Origin: Erysipelotrichaceae bacterium
Lineage (GTDB): Bacteria > Bacillota_I > Bacilli_A > Erysipelotrichales > Coprobacillaceae
Direction: 5' to 3'
DNA length: 41,164 nucleotides
NCBI GenBank assembly: GCA_021201315.1
Contig: JAJQFG010000106.1
Location: 1-41,164 of the forward strand
Shown here one piece after another: positions 7,145 through 22,381 of the stretch. The notes under the pieces were generated by a model. The model was not told where the DNA came from. It searched no databases and saw only the letters and a program-made list of their open reading frames with translations. A program made the position numbers and the translations under genes. Positions within the stretch are counted from its first letter, which is position 1; each line of letters begins with the position of its first letter.

Positions 7145-7822
7145 ATGAAAATCATTTTTAAAATTATATGTATTCCTTTTAAGATTATAGGTTTTATATT
7201 AAAGAAATTATTTGGTTTTATTTTTGGCTGGATAAGCGAATTAGATGATCATATGACTGGTGAAGAGTTTGAACAATATGTAGCTGAAATATTAAAATAT
7301 AATGGTTATAAGAATATCGAACTTACAAAGCATACAGGTGATTATGGTATTGATATTTTAGCGGATTATGAAGGATATAGTTATGCCATTCAATGTAAGA
7401 TGTATCATAAGCCAGTTGGTATTGCAGCTATCCAACAAGCTTATGCAGGTTATATTTATTACAATTGTGATTATCCAGTAGTAGTAACCAATGACAGATT
7501 TACATCTGCTGCTATTGATTTGGCAGAAACAAATGATGTTATCTTATGGGATGGTAAGTATTTAGAAAAGATGCGTAAACGTGCAAATCGTCATAGTTTG
7601 TTTCATCACTATAAAGAAGATGAAGAAAAGGAAACTAAAAATATTGATATTGATCCAGAGATTAAACAATTACTTAAGGATAATGGCTTTGCCAGTATTG
7701 ATTTATTAATATCTTATATGCATATAAGTGAAGATGAGGCTCGATATATATTAGATGATTTAGAATTTTATGGTTATATTTCTAGTGAGGATGAGTATGG
7801 CATTAGAGAAATTTTCTTTTAA
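7145..7822 (+). CDS. Membrane-anchored Mrr-like restriction endonuclease-fold protein
   Basis: Domains in order: residues 1-30 are a lysine-punctuated hydrophobic N-terminus (MKIIFKIICIPFKIIGFILK), likely a membrane anchor. Residues 36-150 are an Mrr-cat PD-(D/E)XK nuclease domain with GEEFEQYVAEIL, the acidic GDYGIDILAD and the AIQCKMY active-site lysine strand. Residues 170-225 are a small winged-helix domain (IDLLISYMHISEDEARYILDDLEFYG) like the FtsK gamma domain. Related proteins cleave modified or foreign DNA, but the membrane-bound forms are uncharacterised. TTG at 7106 is in frame but lies within the promoter, so ATG 7145 is used. No methylase or second restriction subunit is adjacent. 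Length is 225 aa. Confidence 0.85.
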   Translation: MKIIFKIICIPFKIIGFILKKLFGFIFGWISELDDHMTGEEFEQYVAEILKYNGYKNIELTKHTGDYGIDILADYEGYSYAIQCKMYHKPVGIAAIQQAYAGYIYYNCDYPVVVTNDRFTSAAIDLAETNDVILWDGKYLEKMRKRANRHSLFHHYKEDEEKETKNIDIDPEIKQLLKDNGFASIDLLISYMHISEDEARYILDDLEFYGYISSEDEYGIREIFF

Positions 7823-7919
7823 AAATACCATACTTTTAAAAACTTTTCCTAGTTTTTCGTTTTGAAAGAGTTTTCATTTAAAAAAATCAACAAAAAATGT
7901 GATAAAAACAAATAAAATA

Positions 7920-7951
7920 TCAATTTTTTCTAGATTTCATGAAAAAATTGA
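7920..7951. repeat. AT-rich inverted repeat before the first RNA gene
   Basis: The arms 7920-7930 and 7941-7951 are perfect 11-bp inverted copies around a 10-base spacer and end next to the TATAAT at 7953-7958. It may be an operator or the terminator of the nuclease gene; its loop lies in the -35 region of the RNA promoter. The preceding 7823-7919 shows only A/T runs and no gene. Confidence 0.5.
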
Positions 7952-7952
7952 A

Positions 7953-8142
7953 TATAATGATAATTGTCCAAAGGACAATTAAGTATATCATATAATATCT
8001 TCGATATACGTTTCAGCAAAAACTAAAAGTTCATTTATTCATGACAATTATTAAGGTCAGCAGCTTAATAAGATATGTCAGCAGATATCAGTCATGAAAA
8101 AGCAGAGTACGATATAATTCAGGGGGTCGTACTTTTCTTTTT
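7953..8142 (+). ncRNA. Candidate structured RNA with three-way junction and terminator
   Basis: TATAAT at 7953-7958 predicts a start near 7964. Helices follow in order. The first hairpin pairs 7962-7969 with 7973-7980, and the second pairs 7983-7989 with 8003-8009. An outer stem pairs 8039-8045 with 8091-8097 and encloses two further hairpins, 8048-8054/8065-8071 and 8072-8076/8085-8089. Both enclosed loops carry GTCAGCAG. A terminator stem, 8106-8112 with 8127-8133, is followed by T-rich DNA. All helices are perfect or nearly so. No ORF with a ribosome binding site runs through it. The length, about 175 nt, fits a regulatory RNA; I do not recognise a known class. A 6S single-hairpin fold does not match. 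Confidence 0.62.
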
Positions 8143-8219: not shown

Positions 8220-8337
8220 TGGTATAATAACAAGGCGTATTAAAAATATCATTTTGGCGAATTCACTTACGCCCAATTGTCTTAGAAAAGCAGGGTGACA
8301 ATTGGACGTGGTACTCTTCGCTTGTTTTAATAGAACG
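8220..8337 (+). ncRNA. Candidate second structured RNA, single long hairpin with central bubble
   Basis: An extended -10 (TGGTATAAT, 8220-8228) precedes a region that folds on itself. The helices are 8238-8245 with 8325-8332, GCGAA 8257-8261 with TTCGC 8317-8321, and the 9-bp 8273-8281 with 8297-8305 closing a 15-base loop. Between the last two lies a symmetrical 11 x 11 base internal loop. Helix-bubble-helix resembles 6S RNA, but at about 100 nt it is too short and has no clear terminator. It may alternatively be a 5' leader of the decayed gene that starts near 8364. The stretch 8143-8219 between the two RNAs holds only T-rich sequence. Confidence 0.45.
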
Positions 8338-8363
8338 TATGACCTTAAGAAAAGTTAAATGTT

Positions 8364-8848
8364 GAAAGTTCATCATTAGAACCAACTTTATTAGAAAGAA
8401 TTTATGAACATTTAAAGAAAATAAATGACATTAAAAATAAAGATAATAGTGATATTCATGATTGGTTGAATGAACTTATGAATGATTTTACAAGACTTAA
8501 TAAAACTATCAGGATTATATTAAAACATTAAATAGTGCCAAAGCTGAAGAACTGATGAAAACTGAAGCTTTCTTGTTATTTAAAGACAAACTTATCAATT
8601 ATTTACGAACGTTTATTATGGCAATGCAAGTAACTGGAACGAAAATATCACAGAAGAAGACATGCAGCCATTATTTATAGCAGCCACTGATTATTAAATG
8701 TCTATCATCTAAACGTCAAAAAATACTTTCTCATATCCAAAATCCAATATTAAGAAATATTTCTCAAACTATTTTTAAAACCAATATGTTCGCTTATCAA
8801 GAAGGTTTTATTGAAGAATATCAAAAATCTCTTATGAATTTTTCATAA
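8364..8848 (+). pseudogene. Decayed gene, first part resembling DUF2397 (Wadjet type II JetA-like)
   Basis: Three reading frames each carry coding-like sequence with this genome's codon use. Frame A runs 8364-8531 (LEPTLLERIYEHLKKIND, ending in DWLNELMNDFTRLNK). Frame B starts at 8504 (NYQDYIKTLNSAKAEELMK, then AFLLFKDKLINYLRTFIMAMQ) and is stopped by TAG at 8678 but continues to TAA 8846-8848. Frame C, 8644-8697, carries NITEEDMQPLFIAATDY. One extra A in the A4 at 8502-8505 would join frames A and B. The pattern around EELM-TEAFL-FKD-LI-YL matches my memory of DUF2397 proteins; the tail is unrecognised. No start codon with a ribosome site remains. No partner genes of a Wadjet system are present. 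Confidence 0.5.
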
Positions 8849-8864
8849 GAGATTCATTTTTTTT
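8826..8864 (+). terminator. Strong intrinsic terminator after the decayed gene
   Basis: A perfect 13-bp stem (8826-8838 with 8842-8854), 3-base loop and a run of eight T residues. It overlaps the last frame's stop codon, showing where the ancestral gene ended. Confidence 0.9.
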
Positions 8865-21212: not shown

Positions 21213-22381
21213 CATCCGTTATTAGTTGGTCAGCAAGCAGTTGTCAAGGCTGTATTAAGTGTTTGAAAGCATGTCCTGTAGAAGCTATATCCATTGTTAA
21301 TCGTAAAGTACAAATTGATGAAGAAAAATGTATTCATTGTGATATATGTATGCGTACTTGCCCATCCCATGTTTTAAGGGTCAATGGTTGTCATATTTCT
21401 GATACTTTAGGTGAACATGAATATAATGTGGTTTTAGTACCTACAAGTATATTATCAGAGATGAAATCGTTTACAGAGTTTCAGCAAGTCTGTTTAGCTA
21501 TCAAAAAATTAGGCTTTGATGAAGTAGCTGAATATAGTGATATAGAAGGTTATCTCTATCATCAGGCTTTGATCGATAGTAGTAAACAAGAGGGTGTATG
21601 GTTGACATCTTTTTGTCCAACCATTAATCAATTAATAGAAAAACATTATCCAACTTTGTTTGATCAAATTATTCCTTATGAATATCCTGTAGAAGTAGCT
21701 GCTAAGCTTATTCGTAAACGTTATAAGGATAAAAATGTTGGCATTTATTCATTATGTGAATGTGTAGGTAAGATGCTACTTGCTAAAAAACCATTTGGTA
21801 ATGAAGAATCCAATATAGATTATGCTTTAAGTATTTCTCATGTTTTTCCGAAGATTAATCATTTAAAGAATGAAGATACTTTAGATATTGATATTAATAA
21901 ATATGGGGTTAAAAGTGTAGTCAGTCAAACATATAGTGATCATCATAAGTCATTAGTTAAGATTGATGGTTTGAATCAAGCTAAGCATTTTTTGAATTTA
22001 TTGGAGTTTGATAATTTAGAAAATGTGGATTTAGGGGCTTTATATGCTTGTTATGAAGGATGTATTGGTGGTTATTATCTATGGTCTAATCCTTATGATG
22101 GTGGCTATCATTTGGAAAATATGATGGATAATTATCAACAGGATATTGTTCATTTAAATAAAGAGGACTATCTCTTAGATAGAGAATTAGATTTAAAAGA
22201 TCAAAAATCGATGAAAGAACGTATTGCTTGGGTTAAAAGAATTAATGCAATATTAGATACTTTACCACAATTTGATTGTGGCGCTTGTGGGTTTGCGAAT
22301 TGTCGTAGTTTAGCAGAAAATGTTGAAAAAGGTTTAGTAAGTGTTGATACGTGTCGTGTCAGAAAAGGTGGTCAATCATGA
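21209..22381 (+). CDS. Fe-S protein with degenerate [FeFe]-hydrogenase-like domain, possible sensor
   Basis: Residues 13-60 form a 2x[4Fe-4S] ferredoxin domain (CQGCIKCLKACP, then CIHCDICMRTCP). Residues 70-325 resemble the hydrogenase large-subunit C-terminal domain but with altered H-cluster loops: LTSFCPT for TSCSPGW, LCECVGK for MPCVAKK, and ACYEGCIGG for GCPGGCINGGG. Residues 350-385 are a further Fe-S motif, CGACGFANCRSLAENVEKG plus a later Cys. At 390 aa the missing catalytic residues suggest a cluster-bearing sensor or scaffold and not a hydrogen-producing enzyme. It sits between ATPase and DRTGG genes, overlapping both by 4 bases. Confidence 0.82.
   Translation: MTSVISWSASSCQGCIKCLKACPVEAISIVNRKVQIDEEKCIHCDICMRTCPSHVLRVNGCHISDTLGEHEYNVVLVPTSILSEMKSFTEFQQVCLAIKKLGFDEVAEYSDIEGYLYHQALIDSSKQEGVWLTSFCPTINQLIEKHYPTLFDQIIPYEYPVEVAAKLIRKRYKDKNVGIYSLCECVGKMLLAKKPFGNEESNIDYALSISHVFPKINHLKNEDTLDIDINKYGVKSVVSQTYSDHHKSLVKIDGLNQAKHFLNLLEFDNLENVDLGALYACYEGCIGGYYLWSNPYDGGYHLENMMDNYQQDIVHLNKEDYLLDRELDLKDQKSMKERIAWVKRINAILDTLPQFDCGACGFANCRSLAENVEKGLVSVDTCRVRKGGQS

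Follow-up and report, generated by a model that had tools for sequence, protein, structure and literature searches.

A stand-alone structured RNA with two CAGCAG loops and a candidate CcpA-type promoter in an Erysipelotrichaceae bacterium and its relatives

The closest described systems are two stand-alone small RNAs (sRNAs) that are controlled by CcpA. In Bacillus subtilis, RosA (S345) acts as a sponge for the sRNA RoxS (PMC8216469), and is repressed via a cre box located at its start site (-1 to +12). In Staphylococcus aureus, RsaI (RsaOG) has both mRNAs and other sRNAs as pairing partners (PMC9266662), and is repressed by CcpA in glucose. CcpA-controlled stand-alone sRNAs and sponges therefore exist in the phylum; however, both of these examples are repressed. 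Two further classes invite comparison by their form. 6S RNA is a stand-alone RNA of about 180 nt folded into a long rod with a central bubble, while the titrating RNAs of the CsrB/RsmZ type carry repeated identical hairpin loops, with GGA present in multiple loops.

The DNA analysed here, referred to as the window, is a stretch of 41,164 nucleotides from an Erysipelotrichaceae bacterium. Positions 7962-8142 of its plus strand are confirmed to be a real stand-alone structured RNA gene of about 180 nt that is absent from Rfam 15. The gene and its upstream region are made up of the following features.

7823-7836, plus strand: upstream box AAATACCATACTTT (AAATAYSRTAYTTT in homologues), 26 nt 5' of the cre-like box
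7863-7876, plus strand: cre-like box TGAAAGAGTTTTCA, a candidate CcpA site (pattern TGNAANNGNTTWCA, conserved spacing)
7898-7911, plus strand: conserved A-rich box TGTGATAAAAACAA (TTGATAAAATCAA in several homologues), from the upstream alignment
7953-7958, plus strand: -10 box TATAAT; the -35 is poor in the window's genus (CTAGAT, 7930-7935)
7962-7980, plus strand: helix P1 (AATTGTCC-AAA-GGACAATT) at the predicted 5' end of the RNA, from fold and covariation
7983-8009, plus strand: helix P2 (GTATATC/GATATAC), its long loop rich in A+U; other genera show compensatory replacement of A-U by G-C
8013-8018, plus strand: third motif copy UCAGCA, unpaired or weakly structured, from the genus comparison
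8038-8098, plus strand: three-way junction with outer stem 8038-8045/8091-8098, from fold and covariation
8048-8071, plus strand: hairpin A, stem 8048-8055/8064-8071, loop 8056-8063 GTCAGCAG
8072-8089, plus strand: hairpin B, stem 8072-8076/8085-8089, loop 8077-8084 GTCAGCAG
8097-8142, plus strand: terminator hairpin with a G-rich loop (AUUCAGGGGG) and a U tract, from the minimum free energy (MFE) fold and homologues

The MFE of 7953-8142 is -46.1 kcal/mol, compared with -25.1 +/- 3.5 for dinucleotide shuffles (z -5.97; 0 of 200 shuffles as good), and the fold reaches a z of about -6.5 in two homologues from another genus. The outer stem and the two hairpins with identical loops, which the original prediction had proposed, are all found in the computed fold. 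The stretch was also described as lacking reading frames, and none of at least 60 aa lies within 7953-8142. The proposed promoter and terminator held up in part: a TATAAT box and a terminator hairpin in the MFE fold are present, but the -35 is poor and neither element is reported by mechanical scans. The promoter scan passes over TATAAT at 7953-7958; homologues have TTGCNN at the -35 position. The strict terminator scan skips the hairpin because its loop is long, and the hairpin is stronger in other genera. Its G-rich loop is found in every genus except g14. The third motif copy, UCAGCA, is present in genera g1, g6, g7, g12, and g19, is replaced by GAAGCA or AAAGCA in g17, and is missing from g14. 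Two congeners deviate: in G003 (L003 1501-1690, minus strand) the 5' arm of the terminator is nine bases short, and in G002 the RNA sequence diverges close to the contig end. Both are metagenome assemblies, and these deviations may be errors.

The RNA is carried by 14 genomes from seven genera, one copy in each, out of 20 genera of the family that were seen. When the window RNA was used as a blastn query, three congeners gave close copies and one other genus of the family gave traces; a copy from another genus, used in turn as the query, reached further genera. A MAFFT alignment of the window with the other genera misplaces hairpin B, and a covariance model built from other genera was used instead. 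This model, R1, consists of eight sequences from four other genera, with the window's genus left out. It finds the window copy at E 6e-8, as the sole match in its genome, and adds two more genera. Outside the family, no copy was found among 316 genomes of the order (E 0.01) or among 395 genomes of the class (E 0.001), in searches whose large-scale filters are stricter, so that weak relatives may escape. Weak matches in g4 and g18 were discarded, since they do not have the features of the RNA and, in g18, lie inside a coding gene.

In the alignment of the 14 members, 92.4% of the cells are paired, and 22 of the 38 pairs have changes on both sides. The covariation proposed as a check of the original prediction amounts to 63 compensatory cells, which is above the 21 +/- 4 obtained with shuffles and the 3-10 obtained when the partner columns are shifted by one to three positions. 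Covariation is seen in every helix of the three-way junction: in hairpin A, six of the eight pairs have changes on both sides and 98% of the cells are paired, while the values for hairpin B are five of six and 100%. Because the alignment was fitted to the covariance model, these counts lean towards structure, and it is the variants of the hairpin arms that display covariation directly. The arms of hairpin A read CTGTTAGA/TCTAACAG, TTATTAAG/CTTAATAA, CTATTGGT/ACCAATAG, and CTTAATGGG/CCCATTAAG in different genera, around a loop that is nearly constant. Within the window's genus, hairpin B changes from GATAT/ATATC to GGTAT/ATACC. A+T-rich intergenic DNA can suggest a fold by chance, and the region is indeed low in G+C; however, with z values of -6 in several members, detection across genera, and the covariation that refutes it, a chance fold has virtually no likelihood here.

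The original prediction had described the RNA as unrecognised, and comparison with catalogued classes bears this out. With Rfam 15 at gathering and at relaxed thresholds, no family is found at the site, and only a tRNA passes within the window. The best sub-threshold match at the site is the CpoB_ybgF thermometer, at 24 bits compared with the 51 needed. Rfam likewise gives no match over the cut-off in nine homologous loci of other genomes. Identity with 6S RNA was considered and rejected: a match to RF00013 over the cut-off lies on another contig of the same genome (G000:C51:41124-41286), and the long rod of 6S RNA is not seen in the window RNA. RsaI differs in size from the window RNA, which matches no Rfam family, and has a different fold. 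No sequence relation between RosA and the window RNA is known. The RNA family is thus new, while CcpA-controlled stand-alone sRNAs as such are already known. In the literature, no paper was found that joins CcpA, small RNAs, and Erysipelotrichaceae, or that names such a CAGCAG loop.

No feature of the RNA is better conserved across the seven genera than its repeated loops. On the plus strand of the window there are 525 ungapped hairpins with 8-nt loops, and hairpins A and B are the sole pair within 100 nt that have identical loops; such a twin set of 8-nt loops (GTCAGCAG) has no counterpart elsewhere in the window. Across genera, the invariant core consists of the three-way junction and the two loops, nearly always of 8 nt and of the form NNCAGCAG. 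Each loop has two variable nucleotides at the 5' side, followed by six nucleotides, CAGCAG, that lie against the 3' strand of the stem. Both loops end in CAGCAG in 13 of the 14 members, the 14th having AGCAGCAG/AAGCAGCA. The variants encountered (GTCAGCAG, GGCAGCAG, AACAGCAG, AGCAGCAG, and AAGCAGCA) are all 8 nt long and run up to the stem's 3' strand. An A-A mismatch opens the loop of hairpin A to 10 nt in G027 and G031.

Such twin loops recall the CsrB/RsmZ type, and one reading is that the RNA titrates a message-repressing RNA-binding protein, probably a dimeric one, with CAGCAG replacing GGA. This reading, which we consider rather doubtful, is favoured by near-identical loops that hardly vary in size, that are carried by rigid, covarying stems and are equally spaced in all genera, and by a loop sequence that outlasts every stem sequence. 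However, the NNCAGCAG loops lack GGA, each RNA has no more than two good copies whereas known titrating RNAs tend to carry more, and the RNA does not match any Rfam family. To our knowledge, no bacterial protein recognises CAGCAG, which also counts against titration.

The same loops could, together with the G-rich terminator loop, sequester an sRNA that has CUGCUG or C-rich loops, just as RosA sequesters RoxS. The loop layout, a six-nucleotide seed preceded by two unpaired nucleotides, resembles the geometry of kissing loops, which counts for a sponge. The RNA also resembles RosA (PMC8216469) in being a stand-alone RNA with a candidate sponge role and with control by CcpA, the last of which is only predicted for the window RNA. 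Since no partner sRNA has been identified, such a role is unlikely.

The upstream region suggests how the RNA might be controlled. About 130 nt are conserved despite differing neighbour genes. The cre pattern TGNAANNGNTTWCA occurs at two sites in the window compared with 0.54 expected. Across carriers the cre-like box reads TGTAAGAGTTTACA or a variant of it, and in the window it deviates at the central C of the consensus. The distance from the cre centre to TATAAT is 83 nt in the window (from the coordinates 7863 and 7953) and in eight homologues, and 82 nt in a ninth. The upstream box, the 26-nt gap, and the cre-like box keep constant spacing upstream of the RNA in 13 of the 14 carriers. Elsewhere, this pair of boxes is found once behind cinA in the window's genome and once in G019, and it is absent from the 12 genomes that were searched without yielding the RNA and whose genera lack it.

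Those cre boxes that lie upstream of the -35 go with activation in B. subtilis, where ackA is fully activated only if another conserved sequence is present upstream of the ackA cre (PMC3463425). The box located 5' of the cre-like box in the window resembles this ackA element. While RosA has its cre at the start site, the cre-like box of the window RNA is about 95 nt upstream, and this position predicts activation in preferred sugars, by analogy with B. subtilis. We infer that the window RNA is under CcpA control, probably as an activated gene, via the predicted cre at 7863-7876. A CcpA-like LacI-family protein is encoded in all 26 genomes searched, with no match reaching the curated NCBIfam cut-off. 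At 21462-21475 the window has a better cre-like box (TGAAATCGTTTACA), which lies inside the frame that encodes an iron-sulfur hydrogenase-type protein.

The unit stands alone, running from promoter-like to terminator-like elements with no coding gene, which is the layout of a trans-acting sRNA. Taken together, the conserved twin loops with their rigid stems, the stand-alone layout, and the predicted catabolite-type control are in keeping with a regulator that acts in trans. Our preferred reading, put forward tentatively, is a trans-acting sRNA of about 180 nt, predicted to be activated by CcpA, whose CAGCAG loops may pair with mRNAs bearing CUGCUG or with another sRNA. The RNA would be transcribed from the upstream-regulated promoter to the intrinsic terminator, and a CcpA-like protein would bind the box at 7863-7876 and activate transcription when preferred sugars abound. 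The two rigid hairpins of the three-way junction would then present the six-nucleotide seed CAGCAG in their 8-nt loops, and these seeds would pair with CUGCUG on mRNAs or on another sRNA. The unpaired UCAGCA and the G-rich terminator loop might assist pairing in most genera.

A search for complements of the loops at ribosome sites, suggested along with the original prediction, did not bear fruit: scans for the CTGCTG pattern revealed no convincing or common target. Upstream of SD-like sites, CTGCTG occurs at about 4.8 per Mb in genomes with the RNA and 5.0 per Mb in genomes without it, hence with no excess. It is common after start codons, but there it often represents conserved Ala-Ala codons, for example in LAAG and CAAG motifs. 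A PTS EIIB gene was examined as a candidate target and rejected because its Ala codons are not conserved, varying between RNA-bearing genomes. Given these negative scans, base pairing is favoured only moderately over protein binding by the loops, the two functions that the original prediction had suggested.

A broader reading is possible but doubtful, namely that the three-way junction with two 8-nt CAGCAG loops represents a new RNA architecture, a catabolite-switched, two-headed reader of one partner. If this is true, the partner would be either RNA (an sRNA or a motif repeated in an mRNA) or protein (a dimeric RNA-binding protein new to Firmicutes). The near-invariant twin loops offer a defined handle for finding it, and the fixed cre-like promoter layout leads to a sharp prediction, glucose-dependent expression. 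The RNA would join the few sRNAs known to be under catabolite control in low-G+C Gram-positive bacteria, in a family of gut-type bacteria for which the literature search found no RNA biology.

The genomic setting varies between genera. Where the flanks were read (g17, g12, and g14), the RNA adjoins cinA. In g17 and g12 it precedes a convergent LysR gene and purA, and the 3' end of the LysR gene also follows the RNA in g19, g6, and g7. A structured RNA followed by a terminator hairpin might be a cis-acting leader or riboswitch of the next gene. This is very improbable, however, as the next gene is either the convergent LysR gene (g17, g12) or, in g14, a GntR gene with its own RBS, and the window strand has no intact gene downstream of the RNA before a tRNA. 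Moreover, in the window's genus the RNA lies elsewhere, behind a gene for an Mrr-type nuclease, with its promoter region intact. That gene, at 7145-7822 of the window, codes for a stand-alone protein that has a hydrophobic N-terminus and a restriction endonuclease domain of the Mrr type (PF04471, E 1.6e-26).

In the window's genome, cinA is on another contig, where a shortened copy of the box and cre is kept (L134, G000:C24:7766-7798). This suggests that in the window's genus the RNA gene either changed place or was duplicated, with loss at cinA. No CAGCAG twin hairpin was found downstream of cinA at 12 further loci (11 RNA-less genomes and the window's genome). The boxes at L134 stand before a 68-aa ORF, a homologue of which adjoins the RNA in G014.

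Two other observations concern the window downstream of the RNA. Positions 8232-8347 may contain a second structured stretch, with a hairpin CCAATTGTC...GACAATTGG exposing AAAAGCAGGG; its fold z is only -2.1, and it has no Rfam match. Positions 8350-8850 contain what is left of a Wadjet JetA (DUF2397) gene broken by frameshifts, a piece of which (NYQDYIKTLNSAKAEELMKTEAFLLFKDKL...) matches PADLOC JetA2 at E 1.7e-21, with a query that is approximate upstream of that piece.
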